Assembly: GCA_003695725.1 (NCBI GenBank)
Contig: RFHX01000153.1
Coordinates: forward strand, 1 to 8,514
DNA from: J061 sp003695725 [NCBI: Candidatus Schekmanbacteria bacterium]
GTDB lineage: Bacteria > Schekmanbacteria > GWA2-38-11
Reading direction: 5' to 3'
Length of the DNA stretch: 8,514 nucleotides
In this document: positions 1,052-8,514 of the stretch, piece after piece
Numbering within the stretch: the first letter of the stretch is position 1
Layout of the letters: each line of letters begins with the position of its first letter
Notes under the pieces: generated by a model
The model's input: the letters and a program-made list of their open reading frames with translations, nothing else
What the model was told of the DNA's origin: nothing
Database searches by the model: none
Program-made: the position numbers and the translations under genes

Positions 1052-1663
1052 ATGAAAAAGGTAAGTGTATCCCCAAATGAATTTCGGTGGTTTAAATTAT
1101 ATCTTCCAATCCCAATGGGATGCTGCATCATCACCACCGTCAATGAAAAAGGACAAATAAACGCCGCTCCCTTTGCAATGTGCTTTCCGTGGAACAACAG
1201 CGAAGAAAATCCACAGCTTATCGTTATGGCGTACAAGGGATGGCACACATCCCAAAATATCGAAAAAACTGGCGAATTTGTAGTCAATTGGCCAGAAGCC
1301 AAGCTCATTAAAGAAACGATGATTACAGGACGCCATTATGATGAAGGAGTAAATGAGCTTGAAAAGGCCGGTCTAACTGCAATCCCGGCACAGAAGGTAA
1401 AACCGCCGCGCATCGAAGAATGCGTAGGACATTACGAATGCACGCTCGACAGAATTATACCAATGGGAAAGTCAGGATATCACATAATAGGCAATGTAGT
1501 TGATATATCTATAAATGAAAATATAGTCAATATGACGCGGGAAGAGAAACTAAAAAACATAAAACTTCAGATTGGATTCGGAGGACCTGTAGGTGAAAAC
1601 TACTATTTCTTCGGCATCCCATCTGATGAAATTGTAAAGGCATATTACAATGAAGAAAATTAA
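1052..1663 (+). CDS. Flavin reductase-like FMN-binding protein (DIM6/NTAB type)
   Basis: The 203-residue protein has the split-barrel flavin-reductase-like fold, which binds FMN and usually passes electrons from NAD(P)H to flavin or a partner. Visible family marks are PMGCCIITTVNEKGQINAAPFAM (residues 21-43, the flavin-facing strands), the P-x-x-IV pattern at residues 54-58, GWHTSQNIEKTGEFVVNWP (63-81), the common (K/H)-T-x-x-N-I-x-x-T-G-E-F-V-V-N signature, and KPPRIEEC (117-124). There is no signal peptide, so it should be cytoplasmic. GGGAG at 1042-1046 lies 5 nt before the ATG. It is the first gene of the operon and its last 14 bp overlap the thiamine diphosphate enzyme gene, suggesting translational coupling. 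Many members are not true flavin reductases, so the substrate is open. Extra cysteines (24, 25, 44) may be of interest. Confidence 0.8.
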   Translation: MKKVSVSPNEFRWFKLYLPIPMGCCIITTVNEKGQINAAPFAMCFPWNNSEENPQLIVMAYKGWHTSQNIEKTGEFVVNWPEAKLIKETMITGRHYDEGVNELEKAGLTAIPAQKVKPPRIEECVGHYECTLDRIIPMGKSGYHIIGNVVDISINENIVNMTREEKLKNIKLQIGFGGPVGENYYFFGIPSDEIVKAYYNEEN

Positions 1664-3275
1664 AACTCCTCGATTGGTTTTAAAGTCACTTGCGAATAAT
1701 GGTGTTACAGAAATCTTTCATCTGCCGGGAAGCTCAATTGCTCCTATTTACGGAGCAATTGAAGGAAAAAGCCGAATAAAGCCTATTCTCTTAAAACATG
1801 AACAGGCGGCATGCTTTGCTGCAACAGGCTACGCCCTTACTACAAATAAGCCCGGTATATGTATGGTTATGGGAGGTCCCGGAATAACAAATCTCGTTTC
1901 AGCAGTTGCAGAGTGCTATTATCAGTCTGTGCCTCTTGTTTTTATCACTGTTGACCATCCTCGAGAAAATCTGGGCAGCGAAGGATTCCACGAAATCGAC
2001 TCTTTCACAATGCTTTCACCGATTACAAAAAAGATTATTACCCCCAAAAAAGCATCAGATGTGGAGAAGTCTGTAGCTGACGCAATTTCAATTGCGTCGA
2101 GCGGGCGTCCCGGACCGGTTTATCTCAATATACCGAACACAATAATAGATGAATCTGCGCCCTTTAAAAACATAAGGATAAAGAACAAAACAGCAAAACC
2201 GTCAGCAGCACAAATCGCAAAATCAGTTGAAATGATCAAAAGAGCTGAAAATCCTATGCTCTTTTTGGGAAGCGGTGTAATAAGAAGCAGTGCAGAAGAA
2301 GAGCTCAAAAAATTCATAAAACTAACAGGAATTCCAGCCCTATCATCACTTGGCGGAAGAAACTCGTTGCCCCCCGACTTTCCTCTTTCAATAGGTATGC
2401 CTCCTTACACATTCAATACAGACATCATAAATAGGGCTGATTTATTCATTGCCTTGGGTGCTCGCCTAAATCCAGTTAACTTACGAATGGGAATGTTGAA
2501 ACTTCCTGAAAAAATAATTCGAGTTGATATCGACAATGAAAATCCCCGATTCAGAAAAGCAAATCTCTATATAAAAGCAGATATCAAAGAATTTCTGAAT
2601 GCAATAAATAAAAAGGTTGCATCGATGAGCAAAGATTTTCCCATTGCTTCCGGAAAAAAGATCTATGAAGAATACCAAAAAGCGTACAACTCTTATAAAA
2701 ATGAAGAATATAAAAAATTGAAGAAGGATAAAAGTACACTCACATCAAAAAGATTTTTGCTCGAGCTTTCAGATTTTATAAAAGATAAAAAAGCGAGCTT
2801 CTTTACTGATTCAATATGGATTCCATATTCTCACCTTATGCCCGAGATGAAACATAAACGCGCATTTTTTTCTACTCGCTCATTTGGTTGTCTCGGATTT
2901 GCGCTTCCAGCGGCAATTGGAGCCTCTTTCTCACAAAAAGATAGAAAAATCATAAGTCTTTCAGGCGATGGTGGCTTTATGTTCAACTGTCAGGATTTAT
3001 CCACAGCCGCAGATTATCGATTGAAAAACTTCGTTCAGATTATCCTCAACAACAATGGATATTCTTCTCTCAATTATCTTGCAAATATGAAGTATCGGAA
3101 ACAGGATGATTATTATATGTGGAAGAAAATTGATTTTTCCGCACTGTCAAAATCTATGGGCGTCAAACCAATAGAAATCAAATCTCCATCAGGAATAAAA
3201 AAGGCATTAAAGAAGGTCTTTTCTGAAAATGGTCCACATCTCATAAATGTTATTACGAAGGAAAAAGGAGTCTAA
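1650..3275 (+). CDS. Thiamine diphosphate-dependent enzyme, acetolactate synthase-like
   Basis: The 541-residue protein has the three-domain layout of the acetolactate synthase/benzoylformate decarboxylase superfamily. The N-terminal Pyr domain (about 1-165) carries the catalytic Glu51 in KHEQAA, GGPGITNLVSAVAE (75-88) and GRPGPVYLNIP (152-162). The central domain (about 185-320) includes LFLGSGVIRSS and ADLFIALGARL. The C-terminal PP domain has GCLGFALPAAIGA, with Leu415 where acetolactate synthases have the Met that bends the cofactor, and the metal/diphosphate motif GDGGFM (439-444) to NNN (467-469), with Asp440 and Asn467. FHE (113-115) replaces the usual FQE. AAAGG at 1636-1640 lies 9 nt before the ATG. 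No regulatory small subunit follows, so branched-chain amino acid synthesis is unlikely. The reaction probably makes or breaks a C-C bond beside a carbonyl. Cyclic 1,2-dione hydrolysis, decarboxylation and carboligation are all possible. Confidence 0.85.
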   Translation: MKKIKTPRLVLKSLANNGVTEIFHLPGSSIAPIYGAIEGKSRIKPILLKHEQAACFAATGYALTTNKPGICMVMGGPGITNLVSAVAECYYQSVPLVFITVDHPRENLGSEGFHEIDSFTMLSPITKKIITPKKASDVEKSVADAISIASSGRPGPVYLNIPNTIIDESAPFKNIRIKNKTAKPSAAQIAKSVEMIKRAENPMLFLGSGVIRSSAEEELKKFIKLTGIPALSSLGGRNSLPPDFPLSIGMPPYTFNTDIINRADLFIALGARLNPVNLRMGMLKLPEKIIRVDIDNENPRFRKANLYIKADIKEFLNAINKKVASMSKDFPIASGKKIYEEYQKAYNSYKNEEYKKLKKDKSTLTSKRFLLELSDFIKDKKASFFTDSIWIPYSHLMPEMKHKRAFFSTRSFGCLGFALPAAIGASFSQKDRKIISLSGDGGFMFNCQDLSTAADYRLKNFVQIILNNNGYSSLNYLANMKYRKQDDYYMWKKIDFSALSKSMGVKPIEIKSPSGIKKALKKVFSENGPHLINVITKEKGV

Positions 3276-3295
3276 AAATATCTTTTCAGTGTTAT

Positions 3296-3302
3296 GGAAG
3301 GA
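3296..3302 (+). promoter_or_regulatory. Ribosome binding site deciding a TTG start
   Basis: GGAAGGA lies 5 nt upstream of the TTG at 3308-3310. The nearby ATG at 3294 is out of frame and meets a stop after five codons. No in-frame ATG lies near the start of the open frame, so the TTG is the best start for the fused flavoprotein. Confidence 0.7.
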
Positions 3303-3307
3303 TTGTT

Positions 3308-4243
3308 TTGAAAAACTTTGAATTTGATGAAAAGGCGAAAGAGCTTCTTCAAAGGATTTTAGCTATTTGGCCCTCTATTGTTCGCAACTCATGGAAGGAA
3401 AAGATTCTTTCCTACACAAAACTTATAGCATATGAAAACAATGCAGATGTCATAACAGAAGAAATTCTTTTCAGCGGAGCAGTAAAAGCCCTACCAAAAT
3501 CCTATGAACCACTTCTTCTTAGAGTAAAGGCGCCCCAAGAATTTGAGCGCAAGAAACAGGCACAGGAAAAAGTCGATGAAAACAAATGGCTCATAGAAGT
3601 AAAGAGATGGCACAGAGAAGATGACCCTACGGAACCAAAACCATCAAAAAATCCATCTGAGCAGAGGATTGTCGCTATTCTTACAAGTCCAAGAAAAGGA
3701 GGAAATACAGAAATTCTTCTCGACACCTTCTTAGAAGGAGCAAAATCAGAGGGTGCAAATATTGAAAAATTCTTTCTTCAGAAAATGAAAATATCCCCCT
3801 GCATAGGCTGTATGAAATGCAAAGACGAGGAGATACCCGAACTTTGCATCTTACGTGATGATATGACGCCAATCTATCACTCCTTTATCGAAGCAGACAG
3901 TGTTGTCCTTGCTTTCCCTATATACACAGGAAGAGAATGCTCCATAACTTCGGTCTTTTTTGATCGTCTTGATGCTCTTCGTTCACCTCTTCACTTTCCT
4001 AAGCTCAAAGAGCAAAAACGCGGTGCAATAATAGGCACATGGGGATGGCCTAGTAATGATGCATACAACCATATCATTGAATTTCAGGTCATACTCCTGA
4101 AGCTTTTTCAGGTCATAACAACAGAAATTATTACTGCCTGTGGTTTTTGGGGTGAATACTATAAAAAAGGGATAATCAGAAAAGACGAAAAAGGACTTGC
4201 TATTGCCTATGAAGCAGGAAAAGAATTTGTAACACCCCTGTAA
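3308..4243 (+). CDS. PCP-reductase-like domain fused to iron-sulfur flavodoxin reductase
   Basis: This 311-residue protein has two parts. Residues 5-62 follow the PCP_red pattern (named after the C-terminal piece of protochlorophyllide reductase subunits): alternating helix residues, WPSIVRNSWKEKI, then ADVITEEILFSGAVKAL. A charged linker, about 75-117, follows. Residues 119-300 form an NADPH-dependent FMN reductase/flavodoxin domain with the FMN phosphate loop SPRKGGNT (127-134), PIYTG (204-208) and GTWGW (243-247). Four cysteines (165, 168, 171, 180) in a C-x2-C-x2-C-x8-C array recall the compact cluster motif of archaeal-type iron-sulfur flavoprotein Isf, so a [4Fe-4S] centre next to FMN is plausible. 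It probably relays electrons in the cytoplasm, perhaps to the Mo/W enzyme encoded 53 bp downstream. The start is a TTG with a strong ribosome site. The N-terminal domain call is less sure than the flavodoxin call. Confidence 0.75.
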   Translation: MKNFEFDEKAKELLQRILAIWPSIVRNSWKEKILSYTKLIAYENNADVITEEILFSGAVKALPKSYEPLLLRVKAPQEFERKKQAQEKVDENKWLIEVKRWHREDDPTEPKPSKNPSEQRIVAILTSPRKGGNTEILLDTFLEGAKSEGANIEKFFLQKMKISPCIGCMKCKDEEIPELCILRDDMTPIYHSFIEADSVVLAFPIYTGRECSITSVFFDRLDALRSPLHFPKLKEQKRGAIIGTWGWPSNDAYNHIIEFQVILLKLFQVITTEIITACGFWGEYYKKGIIRKDEKGLAIAYEAGKEFVTPL

Positions 4244-4285
4244 AAGCCACAATGGCAGGCAAAAGCGCTCGTCAGACACATAGTC

Positions 4286-4291
4286 GAGGAG
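4286..4291 (+). promoter_or_regulatory. Ribosome binding site choosing the start at 4297
   Basis: GAGGAG lies 5 nt before the ATG at 4297. An earlier in-frame ATG at 4252 would add 15 residues (MAGKSARQTHSRGDN) but has no comparable site upstream, and the family normally begins just ahead of the first cluster cysteine. The later start is therefore preferred. Confidence 0.75.
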
Positions 4292-4296
4292 ACAAT

Positions 4297-6312
4297 ATGG
4301 AAAAGATTGAAAAAATAAAAACTGTATGTGGAATATGTGTTGACAACTGCGGAATGGAAATAGAAAAATCAGGAGACAAAATAACGAAGATAAGCGGTCT
4401 CAAAGAGCATCCCTTCAGTAAAGGGAAGCTCTGCATAAGAGGTATGAATGCTCTCGACATAGCAAACAGTCCCTCAAGAATAAAAAAGCCGCTGATAAAG
4501 ATTAACGGCAAATTAACAGAGACAGATTGGGACGATGCAATCAACGAAGTATGCCGCCTTCTCGAAAAATTGAAGAACGATAAGGGACCACAATCCCTTG
4601 CCGTATATTTTGGTGACCCAATAATTTGTCAGGGCTTGACGCTTTATCTCCTTCGCCTCTTCTGTTATCTCTATGGCACTCCAAACCTTTGCTGTACCGG
4701 TTCAATCTGCAATATATCGAAAGTAATGGCTAATATGGTTACCTATGGAAGATGGACTTCCCCGCATTATGAGAAGACAGACTATATTATTCTATGGGGC
4801 ACAAATCCCTTAGTATCATCGCTTCGCACAAGGAATAGATTGCTCGAGGCAAAAAAAAGAGGAGCAAAAATCACAGTTATAGACCCAAGAATAACAGAAT
4901 CAGTAAAAATAGCTGACAAACATATTGCTCCAAAACCCGGCACAGACGGAGCGCTTGCCCTTGGAATGATAAAAACAATCATTGAAGAACGGATATTTGA
5001 TTTTGACTTTGTTGAAAGATATACAGTCGGATTCAATGAAATATTGGCATTGACAGGGAATATCAGTTTTGAAGAAATTGAATCGCTAACCGGGATATCA
5101 GCAGATGAAATAAAAGCACTTGCAAGAGAGTTTGCAATGATTGAAAAGGCATCAATTGAACAAGGAAGCTCTCTTGACCAGCATACCAATGGCAACCAAA
5201 CTGTGCGCGCCGTTGCTGTCCTTCTTTCAATAACAGGTAAAATCGACCGCGAAGGCTGCAATGTCTTTTTAAAAGTAGCCCCAACTTCACAGCCCTTGAC
5301 AAAAGATATGCCTCCTCTTTCCACACCTCCTGTTGGAACGAAAGAGCATCCAATATTTACAAGATATTTTAGGCAGGCACAAGCAATGACATTTCCGGAA
5401 TATTCTGAAAAGAAAGATAGCAATCAAATCAGAGGACTTATTGTTGACGGCAGCAATATCGCTCTTACTTGGCCAAACTCTGCAAAAACAGTGAATTTTC
5501 TGAAAGGCCTCGATTTTTTGGTTACCATAGACACAGTTATGTCTGAAACAGCAATGCTTTCCGATATTGTACTGCCTGCAGCCGGCTTTCTTGAAAGAGA
5601 CGAGCTTTCCATTCAACAGCCACTTTCATTGCAAAGAAAAGTCCTACAGATTGGCGAAGCAATGGCTGACAATCTCATATGGGAAAGGATATTCGACGGA
5701 CTTGGATTAAGAGACAAAATTCCATGGTCAAATATTGAAGAAGGAATTACATATCTCTTGAAGCCCACAGGAAAAACATATTACGATTTACTTGAATCGT
5801 CTCTCGATGAAAGTTTTCATACACCTGATATTGGAAAAAGTCTTGAAAATGGGTTTCCGACAAAATCCGGAAAAATTGAACTTTCATCTTCCATTTTCAA
5901 GGAAACAGGCTACTCACCCGTGCCGAAATTCGAATTGCCTGCAGAAATACCTGACAAGGAATATCCCTTTATTCTTACAACAGGAGGAAGAATTCCTCAA
6001 TTCAACCATTCACAATTCAGAAATATAGCATCTCTTAATAAGACAAACCCAATTCCTTCATTTGAAATAAATCCTGACGACGCAGAAGAGAGAGGAATAA
6101 GCAATGGTGATGAATGTTATCTTTCATCGAGAAGAGGAAAAATCAAAGTAAAAGCAAAAGTTACTGATAAAATAATGAAGGGAGTTATTCATATGCTTCA
6201 CGGCTGGAGTGAAGCTAATATAAATTTATTGACGGATATCGAGGCACGAGACCCAATATCTGGATTTCCTTCATTGAAATCACTTTCGTGCAGGGTTGAC
6301 AAGATAGGATAA
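4297..6312 (+). CDS. Molybdopterin/tungstopterin oxidoreductase, acetylene hydratase-like
   Basis: The 671-residue protein is a DMSO-reductase-superfamily catalytic subunit binding a bis-pterin guanine dinucleotide Mo or W cofactor. Its N terminus carries a [4Fe-4S] site: Cys11, 14, 18 and 46 (C-x2-C-x3-C-x27-C), followed by IRG. GTPNLCCTGSIC (127-138) places Cys138 as the likely metal ligand. Pterin-contact segments include WGTNPLVSS (167-175) and, in the middle, an EQGSSLDQHTNGNQT segment and an LPAAGFLERDE segment. The C-terminal dinucleotide-binding barrel has TTGGR, FNHSQFRN, HGWSEANINLLTD and DPISGFPSLK, as in acetylene hydratase and transhydroxylase relatives. No twin-arginine signal is present, so it should be cytoplasmic. 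The residue after the second cluster Cys is Val15, where acetylene hydratase has its catalytic Asp, so hydration of acetylene is unlikely. Electrons may come from the upstream flavoprotein. The substrate is unknown. Confidence 0.85.
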   Translation: MEKIEKIKTVCGICVDNCGMEIEKSGDKITKISGLKEHPFSKGKLCIRGMNALDIANSPSRIKKPLIKINGKLTETDWDDAINEVCRLLEKLKNDKGPQSLAVYFGDPIICQGLTLYLLRLFCYLYGTPNLCCTGSICNISKVMANMVTYGRWTSPHYEKTDYIILWGTNPLVSSLRTRNRLLEAKKRGAKITVIDPRITESVKIADKHIAPKPGTDGALALGMIKTIIEERIFDFDFVERYTVGFNEILALTGNISFEEIESLTGISADEIKALAREFAMIEKASIEQGSSLDQHTNGNQTVRAVAVLLSITGKIDREGCNVFLKVAPTSQPLTKDMPPLSTPPVGTKEHPIFTRYFRQAQAMTFPEYSEKKDSNQIRGLIVDGSNIALTWPNSAKTVNFLKGLDFLVTIDTVMSETAMLSDIVLPAAGFLERDELSIQQPLSLQRKVLQIGEAMADNLIWERIFDGLGLRDKIPWSNIEEGITYLLKPTGKTYYDLLESSLDESFHTPDIGKSLENGFPTKSGKIELSSSIFKETGYSPVPKFELPAEIPDKEYPFILTTGGRIPQFNHSQFRNIASLNKTNPIPSFEINPDDAEERGISNGDECYLSSRRGKIKVKAKVTDKIMKGVIHMLHGWSEANINLLTDIEARDPISGFPSLKSLSCRVDKIG

Positions 6313-6317
6313 GTAGA

Positions 6318-7370
6318 ATGAAAGCGCTATATGCAAGATTGAGCGATTCGAAGTTTATCATTGAAGATATTCCTCGTCCAAAAGCAGGAAAAACCCCCTA
6401 CTCCCCTGAAGATGTTATCGTAAAGGTTGAATATTGTGGAATCTGCGGCACCGAATTGATGCTGTATAGGAAAGGATTTCCAAAGGGAGTAATAAATAGG
6501 GAAAAGGTTGGGCTTGGCCATGAGTTTTCAGGTATCGTAGAAGAGGTTGGCAGTGCAGTAGAAAATATCAAAAAAGGGGACAGAGTCGTAGGAGAAGTTA
6601 CAACTAATCCCTGCGGTAAATGTATCTTCTGTCAAGACGGCAAAAACAACTTCTGTCCCACAGCAGGTGCATATATGCTGGAACAGGGAGCATACAGTGA
6701 ATATCTGCCAATTCCAGCAAAGAATCTTCATATTATTCCTGACAATGTATCCCTAAAGTCAGCCGCAATGTGTCAGCCGTTGAGTCTTTCTGTAAATGCA
6801 TTAAAAGTCGTGGGAAAAATAAAAGAAGGTGAAAGCATTGCCATAATAGGTCCCGGACCGATTGGACTTCTTATGCTAATACTTGCTCGATATTACGGCG
6901 CTGGAAAAATTTTTGTTGTTGGGCTCACAAAAGATGAAAAACGCCTCAAACTTGCAAAATCATTAGGCGCTGATTTTATTTTCACAGCTGACAAAGATGA
7001 TGCGCAGAAAGAAATAAAAAAGCAAACCAATGGATTCGGTGCAGATATTGTTGTGGAGATAGCAGGTGCAGCAGAAGCAGTCAAGTCCGCTTTCAAAATA
7101 GTTAGAAACTGCGGACGAATCGTATTGACCGGAGCTGGCTATGAACCTTTTGAGATTTCACTTGCAGACGAAGTTATGATAAGACAGCTATCGGTGCTTG
7201 GATGTCGTGGTGACCCCACTCCCTGCTGGAATGAAGCAATTGATATACTTGCAACCGGGAAAATTGATATTGAGCCAATTGTAAGCCATATTCTCCCATT
7301 AGAAAAATGGGAAGAAGGATTTAAGCTCTCGATGAGCGGAGAATCGTTGAAGGTGCTGATTAAACCCTGA
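6318..7370 (+). CDS. Zinc-dependent medium-chain alcohol/polyol dehydrogenase
   Basis: The 350-residue protein belongs to the zinc-containing medium-chain dehydrogenase family (alcohol, sorbitol and threonine dehydrogenases), which interconverts alcohols and ketones or aldehydes with NAD(P). Catalytic zinc residues visible are Cys40 (YCGICGTE) and His68-Glu69 (GLGHEFSG). The structural zinc site is Cys99, 102, 105 and 113 (NPCGKCIFC, then NFC). GPGPIG (178-183) is the dinucleotide loop. The second strand ends VVGLTKDEKRL without the usual acidic residue, so NADP use is possible. Where polyol dehydrogenases have a zinc-binding Glu in VEPL, this protein has MCQPL (Cys152-Gln153). It starts 5 bp after the Mo/W enzyme gene, with AGGA at 6306-6309, so the two are surely cotranscribed. 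It closes the operon and may make or use a carbonyl handled by the other enzymes. Confidence 0.85.
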   Translation: MKALYARLSDSKFIIEDIPRPKAGKTPYSPEDVIVKVEYCGICGTELMLYRKGFPKGVINREKVGLGHEFSGIVEEVGSAVENIKKGDRVVGEVTTNPCGKCIFCQDGKNNFCPTAGAYMLEQGAYSEYLPIPAKNLHIIPDNVSLKSAAMCQPLSLSVNALKVVGKIKEGESIAIIGPGPIGLLMLILARYYGAGKIFVVGLTKDEKRLKLAKSLGADFIFTADKDDAQKEIKKQTNGFGADIVVEIAGAAEAVKSAFKIVRNCGRIVLTGAGYEPFEISLADEVMIRQLSVLGCRGDPTPCWNEAIDILATGKIDIEPIVSHILPLEKWEEGFKLSMSGESLKVLIKP

Positions 7371-7440: not shown

Positions 7441-8493
7441 TTACTCGGTTTGTTTTTTCCCGAAAACAAAATCAAGATGCCATATTTTTTCAGCTTTTGT
7501 TCCAAGATACCAGAAACTCAACGCAAGGATGGCAAAAAATATAGCTTTATGAAGACTATCCCAAAAGTACTCAAAAAAACGCGTATATAAGTTGAGAAAT
7601 AAATATGTTATACCAAAACCTCTTGTCATAGCATCATCGTTTTTCAGTCCATAATAAATCGAGGCAATAGCTGCAACTCCAAACAATATCGACCAATAGA
7701 ACAATTCTATCTGTTTGACTTTCTCCCATTCATCTATGGATCCATAGTTGCCGAATATTGACAGAATCCATAATGCATTGAATAAATAGAGCAGTCCCAT
7801 TATTCTCGTTGACTTTAAAAAATCTTTGGATATCTGCCATTTGCCGAATAAACCGCTAACAGCAGTGAGGACAAGCCCAAAAAGAACAAAACGCAAAGGG
7901 TAATTCATACCAAGATAATATGCCTTCCATTCAGAAACATAACCTGTTTCAGCACCGAACCATCCTCCTAATGAAAGGAGCGAAAAAATCCACACGAGTT
8001 TTGAAGGAAAGAGCAAACCAAGAATTCCATATACTATTGCGAGAAGCAAAATAAGCAAGGAGAAATGTCCGCTTCCAGTATCCAACGCTTTGCCAAGACA
8101 TGCAACTGAAAGCGCCGTCGTAAATACACCGAGAAAAAAAATTGCTTCGTTGCTAAAAACTTTTTCCGGCCACTTTTCCTTTCTTTTAATGCCATAATTA
8201 TAAATCAAAGCAGCAATCAACGCCGCAAACAGTGCTTTTACAAAATAGGAAACATCAAATAATGTAAATAACAGTTCTACCAAGAAATCATCGGTAACAA
8301 TTGCACATATCGAGGTTATGATACAAATGATTGCCACCCAAAAAGAATACTTTGCCAACCTTTTCCAATCAAATGACGATACCTCGAAACTTTCTATAAG
8401 CATCTTGCCCTGATCTTTGGAAATGAGATTTTCCTCAACCCATTTTTCTATTGCCGATGTCAATATCTGTGCATTCTTTTTTGAGAGCTTCAT
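7441..8493 (-). CDS. DUF2157-like multi-pass membrane protein
   Basis: The 350-residue protein has a soluble N terminus of about 45 residues (KLSKKNAQILTSAIEKWVEE, NLISKDQGKML), the short helical region typical ahead of DUF2157-type membrane domains. About ten hydrophobic segments follow, for example YSFWVAIICIITSICAIV, FSLLILLLAIVYGILGLLF, IMGLLYLFNALWILSIF and AIFFAILALSFWYLG. The C-terminal NLYTRFFEYFWDSLHKAIFF followed by a last helix resembles the conserved end of that family. The function of the family is not known to me. It would sit in the inner membrane. A TTG 12 bp further upstream (8505) would add MIYY, but AAGG there touches the TTG with no spacer, whereas it lies 12 nt before the ATG at 8493, so the ATG is preferred. 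It is convergent to the operon and probably unrelated. Confidence 0.65.
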   Translation of the reverse strand: MKLSKKNAQILTSAIEKWVEENLISKDQGKMLIESFEVSSFDWKRLAKYSFWVAIICIITSICAIVTDDFLVELLFTLFDVSYFVKALFAALIAALIYNYGIKRKEKWPEKVFSNEAIFFLGVFTTALSVACLGKALDTGSGHFSLLILLLAIVYGILGLLFPSKLVWIFSLLSLGGWFGAETGYVSEWKAYYLGMNYPLRFVLFGLVLTAVSGLFGKWQISKDFLKSTRIMGLLYLFNALWILSIFGNYGSIDEWEKVKQIELFYWSILFGVAAIASIYYGLKNDDAMTRGFGITYLFLNLYTRFFEYFWDSLHKAIFFAILALSFWYLGTKAEKIWHLDFVFGKKQTE

Positions 8494-8514
8494 ATAATAT
8501 ATCAACCTTATGGA

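Follow-up and report, generated by a model that had tools for sequence, protein, structure and literature searches.

We describe here a conserved set of genes on an 8514-base contig (C153, RFHX01000153.1) of the Candidatus Schekmanbacteria bacterium J061 sp003695725, the whole length of which is the window analysed in this study; the source genome (G000) is 2.77 Mb in size and 98% complete. Five consecutive genes on its forward strand, here called g1 to g5, would encode a flavin protein, a thiamine diphosphate (ThDP) enzyme, an iron-sulfur flavoprotein, a molybdenum or tungsten (Mo/W) enzyme and a zinc dehydrogenase, and the list of open reading frames (ORFs) and the Pfam matches bear out the positions and families that a first-pass annotation had assigned to all five. 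The set is real, conserved and restricted to this lineage. We propose, at a probability of roughly 0.4, that it is an operon serving a carbon pathway in the cytoplasm, probably an anaerobic one, in which the products of g2, g4, g5 and g3 take the parts considered below. Because the set is kept in few relatives and matches no characterised pathway that we found, the reaction sequence is probably an undescribed but chemically conventional one.

These genes are linked in related genomes as well. Our lineage sample consists of the window genome, G001 from its family, and G002 and G003 from its order (G003 being 70% complete), the other genomes among the 60 listed sharing only the domain. The order g2-g3-g4-g5 is kept in G001, and g2-g4-g5 in G002, on the same strand as in the window; synteny is present in three of the four lineage genomes, and g4 stands between g2 and g5 in all three genomes with the module. 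Identities to the window proteins are 59% (G001) and 44% (G002) for g2, 63% (G001) for g3, 55% and 49% for g4, and 74% and 54% for g5; for comparison, G000 and G001 share 74–75% identity in their biosynthetic IlvB pairs and 81% in IlvC and IlvD. The genes, which at first pass had been expected to stay together in relatives, were not found unlinked in G001 or G002, and G003 showed no module-type ThDP or Mo/W gene: it gave no g4 match at E ≤ 1e-110 and ThDP matches of the acetolactate synthase (ALS) type only (g5 was not searched there), and it holds only more distant relatives of g1 and g3, at other sites. Thus g2, g4 and g5 are inherited as a linked block, to which g3 is added in one family.

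Within the window, g1 and g2 overlap by 14 bases, and gaps of 32, 8 and 5 bases separate g2 from g3, g3 from g4 and g4 from g5. The g3-g4 gap widens to 53 bases if g4 begins at the ATG at 4297 rather than where its frame opens at 4252, and the former start appears more likely because a Shine-Dalgarno-like GAGGAG lies directly upstream of that ATG. To say that close spacing shows joint action, as the first-pass annotation did, is an overstatement; spacing suggests cotranscription, and it is the conserved synteny that makes joint action likely. What had been presented as a five-gene unit contracts in the same way to a core of three to four genes, g2-g4-g5 with g3 in one family, of which g1 is not a conserved member. 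g1 (1052–1663, + strand) would encode a split-barrel, flavin reductase-like protein with flavin mononucleotide (FMN; Pfam Flavin_Reduct, 4.7e-16; PDB 1eje, E = 1.4e-25), and it is linked to the module in the window genome only, no relative being found in G002 at E ≤ 1e-5. A flavin reductase gene about 2.5 kb from the module of G001, on the opposite strand, was considered as its counterpart and rejected, being 68% identical to another gene of the window genome (contig C116) and 46% identical to g1. As for g3, it is absent between the ThDP and Mo/W genes of G002, where a 126-base spacer contains no remnant visible by eye. The claim that an ALS small subunit, a CoA ligase and a transporter are missing holds among the window ORFs with Pfam matches; it is limited to the window, since the window is the entire contig, and nothing can be said beyond the contig end.

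Distribution searches covered 386 genomes, of which 4 belong to the lineage, a sample that spreads widely but represents large phyla sparsely, and neither ThDP nor Mo/W orthologues were seen in the 382 genomes from outside the lineage. The g4 model scored 1303–1323 bits in G000, G001 and G002 against at most 500.6 bits in any other match (20 genomes at E ≤ 1e-110), and the g2 model 965–1043 bits in the same three genomes against at most 362 bits otherwise (212 genomes at E ≤ 1e-75). The g4 query, which does detect these three known positives, gave no match at E ≤ 1e-140 in the phylum of G178, where 195 genomes were searched, and none at E ≤ 1e-150 in two tiny phyla of 1 and 3 genomes. None of eight Mo/W neighbourhoods read outside the lineage repeats the core, and the ninth that was read is a second copy in G001. 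At one locus (L063) a ThDP-like ORF of 25% identity, about 4.4 kb off and on the opposite strand, was judged to be there by chance and was set aside as a co-occurrence. The top-ranked matches in plasmid records are 31% identical for the ThDP protein and 31% for the Mo/W protein, and the plasmid dehydrogenases among the matches listed (25 of 3810 records) are 33.6–36.3% identical. The Mo/W protein listed first (31%), on a plasmid of Rhizobium sp. CB3090 (L163, 2651–9320), has as its neighbours genes for an aldehyde dehydrogenase, a ferredoxin, a protein binding flavin adenine dinucleotide (FAD) and NAD(P), and MoaA, a different electron-carrier solution. Neither g3 by itself nor the Mo/W alignment, used as queries against contigs of GTDB genomes, yielded confirmed relatives, and a literature search for the gene combination found nothing relevant.

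The product of g2 (1650–3275, + strand), with three TPP Pfam domains, belongs to the ALS superfamily and forms a subfamily of its own. A tree of 45 rows, which carries a long-branch warning from the program, unites the ThDP proteins of the three modules in one clade (support 100/100) outside the ALS clade (97/91), which takes in Klebsiella ilvB, Citrobacter ilvG, five IlvB proteins of the lineage and 24 matches from other genomes; the position of g2 among Gcl, Xsc, IolD, Oxc, PoxB and others depends on open forks (46/80) and long branches. Residues were compared in a separate alignment of 24 rows, 10 of ALS and 3 of the module, using what we take to be the residue numbers and roles of AHAS II, namely E47 as the catalytic Glu, Arg276 as binding the acceptor carboxylate and GMHG as binding FAD. 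Like the ALS large subunit (TIGR00118, IlvB/IlvG), with which g2 shares its fold family and its best profile score (324 bits against a cut-off of 538), all three module proteins keep the catalytic Glu (E51 in g2) and the GDG...N motif for ThDP. Unlike it, they have Val in the Arg276 column (Arg in 10/10 ALS rows), GMPPY or ASPSF for the GMHG segment (10/10), Asn, Ile or Ala for Lys159 (Lys in 9/10) and His for Gln110 (Gln in 10/10), this His occurring in none of the 21 other rows; there is no small subunit in the window either. IlvB proper is encoded at two other loci of the window genome, and at both the ORF downstream resembles, by eye, an ACT-type small subunit. Judged by these residues, g2 is not an acetolactate synthase; it does not group tightly with authentic ALS, and its separate clade, the lost ALS residues and the two IlvB genes elsewhere in the genome uphold the earlier statement that the module does not serve amino acid synthesis. 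An analogy drawn at the same time, with cyclohexane-1,2-dione hydrolase (CDH) or IolD, is unsupported: IolD comes near the module only through the open forks and is not among the best 25 of 55 NCBIfam matches, and CDH is not among the best 60 of 126 PDB matches. A further ThDP gene of the window genome (contig C319; L037, 143–1777) groups with catabolic AlsS at 100/95, under the same long-branch warning, and residues 169–229 of g2, in the region of the central domain, match Pfam CO_dh (PF02552) at 22.1 bits against a cut-off of 21.

For g4 (4297–6312, + strand), Pfam matches to Molybdopterin, Molydop_binding and Fe4S4 indicate a single-chain oxidoreductase with Mo/W bound to bis(pyranopterin guanine dinucleotide) (bisPGD). 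It has a single N-terminal [4Fe-4S] motif with its cysteines kept and no room for a signal peptide, and because the protein starts just before this motif it is probably cytoplasmic. None of the best 25 of 27 NCBIfam models reaches its cut-off, the top one being the formate dehydrogenase (FDH) alpha subunit at 350 against 666 bits; the PhsA model gives 242 against 694 bits, and the top five PDB matches include a thiosulfate reductase. With FDH alpha and FdhF of HDCR (TIGR01591), g4 shares the single-chain [4Fe-4S] and bisPGD layout and the metal-ligand column, which is Cys in all three module proteins (Cys153 aligns with the FdhF ligand). It differs from them, besides the score, at the positions that we presume to be His141 and Arg333 of FDH, where the three module proteins have Asn and Val, Met or Phe, respectively; the latter column lies in a gapped region, but the pairwise alignment with HDCR agrees for the window protein. 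Acetylene hydratase (PDB 2e7z), aligned in two stretches, is alike in the Cys ligand column, the one [4Fe-4S] cluster and the length of about 700 residues, yet its presumed catalytic Asp13, which follows the second cluster Cys, is replaced by Val in two module proteins and by Phe in one, with Asp or Glu one place later in all three. In the anaerobic resorcinol pathway of Azoarcus anaerobius an enzyme of the dimethyl sulfoxide reductase family and a ThDP enzyme also meet in one pathway, the latter being reportedly of the pyruvate dehydrogenase kind. That pathway differs in its hydroxylase: according to a MopB review (PMC10100899), resorcinol hydroxylase and pyrogallol transhydroxylase belong to a Ser-ligated group, and EbdA (the ethylbenzene enzyme) and CmdA to an Asp-ligated one. 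Measured against those ligands, the Cys found in 3/3 module proteins argues against hydroxylation or dehydroxylation by g4 of the known kinds, as had been suggested at first pass.

No gene for an Fe-S partner subunit of g4 is recognised by Pfam among the window ORFs, and g3 (3308–4243, + strand, TTG start) lies directly before g4 in two of the three module genomes. Its product is an FMN protein of the flavodoxin fold (FMN_red, 5.1e-13) with a Cx2Cx2Cx8C motif. It resembles iron-sulfur flavoprotein (Isf) in this fold and in the compact Cx2Cx2CxnC motif, which we take to be the Isf arrangement and from which an Fe-S cluster is predicted; the four Cys are kept in 11/11 aligned copies, one of them lacking the N-terminal domain. 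This extra domain of about 75 residues sets g3 apart from Isf and is weakly like DUF2621 (E = 6.7e-4) and PCP_red (E = 0.016; 15.6 bits against a gathering score of 32.5), both below the Pfam cut-offs. The full-length family is found only in the 4 lineage genomes of the 386, with 2–3 copies in each; in 24 of the 28 genomes with g3 matches it is essentially the flavodoxin part that matches, the longest match reaching position 40 through a stop codon. The fusion protein has a second conserved setting: in all four lineage genomes a g3 paralogue is flanked by genes for a family III CoA-transferase and a small PNPOx-type flavin protein, next to a TetR-like ORF (L105, 8132–10874; L106, 7659–11094; L108, 7549–10969; L109, 2481–5805), where Pfam supports only the CoA-transferase and PNPOx assignments of L106 and the TetR-like and other assignments are by sequence likeness. 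Contig C86 of the window genome (L104, 28–3281) has a further paralogue of g3, and next to it, in the opposite orientation, are an ORF that matches g4 over 104 residues (31%) and ORFs that look ferredoxin-like and chaperone-like by eye; this context hints weakly that the g3 family may serve Mo enzymes.

Downstream, g5 (6318–7370, + strand; Pfam ADH_N and ADH_zinc_N) encodes a medium-chain Zn dehydrogenase nearest to threonine dehydrogenases. Among NCBIfam models that of L-threonine 3-dehydrogenase scores best (214 bits, with the cut-off at 380) and that of scyllo-inosose dehydrogenase, IolM, third-best (197 against 450), and g5 also matches butanediol dehydrogenases, among others. The zinc ligands C43, H68 and E69 (catalytic) and C99, C102, C105 and C113 (structural) are kept. 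A further, acidic ligand of the catalytic zinc, which E. coli Tdh has as Asp and a butanediol dehydrogenase as Glu, is replaced by Gln153 in 3/3. The G001 module is directly followed by a second, distinct Zn dehydrogenase gene (L033, 8064–9161), 31% identical to g5.

In the alignments g2, g4 and g5 retain the residues by which their superfamilies bind cofactors, while those that give the tested characterised members their specificity are not kept, and our consideration of the pathway starts from this combination. Let us assume that g5 oxidises or reduces a hydroxyl or carbonyl group with NAD(P). Then g2 would break or form, by ThDP chemistry, the adjacent C-C bond in the resulting 2-oxo or 2-hydroxy-oxo compound, perhaps without FAD and without the Arg that holds the acceptor carboxylate in ALS. 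At its Cys-ligated Mo/W, g4 would carry out a two-electron reaction with either the substrate or the product. Its own [4Fe-4S] cluster might then hand the electrons on to g3, an Fe-S flavoprotein that would stand in for the usual Fe-S and NADH subunits; in the window genome only, g1 may add or exchange flavin. A vicinal diol or dione, as first imagined for this DNA, is a possible substrate. We hold a more specific version to be tentative and slightly less probable than the pathway itself, namely that an FAD-free, non-ALS ThDP carboligase or lyase and a new Cys-ligated class of Mo/W enzyme share a single substrate and are connected to NAD(P) through the lineage-specific Fe-S flavoprotein with its PCP_red-like (protochlorophyllide reductase-like) domain, with activities new to the superfamilies of all three enzymes.

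Several observations weigh against the proposed pathway. The core of G002 has no linked g3, whose closest relative there (40%) is elsewhere, beside other genes, and g3 may therefore not be an obligate electron carrier. The g3-like genes, moreover, are present in 2–3 full-length copies per genome, some of them beside CoA-transferase genes, and the role of g3 may therefore be a general one. Single-sequence structure models of g3 and g2 are poor (mean predicted local distance difference test scores of 36 and 34). Four lineage genomes are a small sample, and in the wider searches the scoring for g2 and g4 was confined to the best candidates from a first look at each genome, in most cases three, with g5 not searched separately.

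Other explanations need to be considered beside the proposed pathway. g2 could be a diverged third acetolactate or acetoin enzyme whose partner g5 is a dehydrogenase of the butanediol type; the Mo/W gene would then be a passenger with no part in the chemistry. The best profile matches of g2 to ALS models (324 bits) and the butanediol dehydrogenases among the matches of g5 agree with this; we nevertheless think it unlikely in view of the loss of Arg276 and of the FAD clamp, the lack of a small-subunit ORF beside g2 and the place of the Mo/W gene between g2 and g5 in 3/3. Cleavage of a ring or dione of the CDH or IolD type, combined with a Mo enzyme like transhydroxylase or resorcinol hydroxylase, would give meaning to the IolM match of g5 (third-best, 197 against 450 bits), but it had already been weakened by the Cys in place of Ser at the g4 ligand column, and with no supported kinship of g2 to IolD and no CDH among the best 60 of 126 PDB matches it is very improbable.

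Ketone activation as in acetone-degrading sulfate reducers would have g2 adding a one-carbon unit to a ketone, g5 interconverting alcohol and ketone, and g4, as an FDH-like enzyme, supplying or removing the one-carbon unit. Two reports (PMC4103992, PMC7888143) describe an ALS-type ThDP enzyme and a threonine dehydrogenase-type Zn enzyme among the acetone-induced proteins of the anaerobe Desulfococcus biacutus, a likeness by description, and the mutase family PF01642 occurs in all four lineage genomes. The D. biacutus system differs, however, in that its genes lie in different clusters, that it has a B12 mutase and that the available text contains no 'molybd' and mentions no Mo/W enzyme (PMC4103992); in Desulfosarcina cetonica, a relative with the same pathway, that dehydrogenase is missing and hence dispensable, and it had earlier been proposed to detoxify (PMC7888143). 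Moreover, g4 lacks the FDH His and Arg, the mutases are found also in G003 and on contigs other than that of the module, and CdhD (PF03599), although over the Pfam cut-off in 4/4, is matched in part only, over no more than about 120 of its 387 positions (18.7–51 bits), with no clear carbon monoxide dehydrogenase/acetyl-CoA synthase route. The PF01642 and PF03599 searches neither support nor exclude ketone activation, which we regard as rather improbable. About the same low probability goes to organosulfur or sulfite chemistry, in which an Xsc-like g2 and a g4 resembling thiosulfate or polysulfide reductase would process a sulfonate, with a CbiX-like gene beside the module tied to sirohaem. An ARLNP/TRLNP segment in the region of ALS Arg276 is common to g2 and the Xsc row, thiosulfate reductase is among the closest structures to g4, and the CbiX-like neighbour is found in two of the three module genomes; on the other side, the grouping of g2 with Xsc has no support (46/80, an open fork with long branches), and the PhsA score of g4 is far below its cut-off.

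Irrespective of the details of the proposed pathway, a few other features of the window need mention. The CbiX-type chelatase-like gene (351–842, − strand; Pfam CbiX, 63.7 bits, with NCBIfam chelatase models below cut-off) is divergent to the module in the window genome and in G002, where a 46% identical homologue lies beside the ThDP gene (L034, 11405–11890); no homologue was found in G001 or G003 at E ≤ 1e-5, and the gene may count as a neighbour of the module. A 12-pair hairpin (334–303, − strand) directly follows this gene. The ORF at 7441–8505 (− strand), taken from the ORF list, had no match in the Pfam scan. RNA family searches gave no match at E ≤ 1 in the window, L033 (the G001 locus) or L034 (the G002 locus); the promoter scan gave 16 matches, below the shuffled mean of 24.8, and the terminator scan 7, at the chance level of 7.1.

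Lastly, the residue comparisons narrow the chemistry to be considered, arguing against formate dehydrogenase, against acetolactate synthesis with bound FAD and against hydroxylation of the Ser or Asp type. If the linked genes do serve one pathway, it would mean a new activity for the ThDP and for the Mo/W-bisPGD superfamily of cofactor enzymes, in a lineage of which few genomes have been sampled, and the core offers a small, cloneable gene set in which that activity may be sought.

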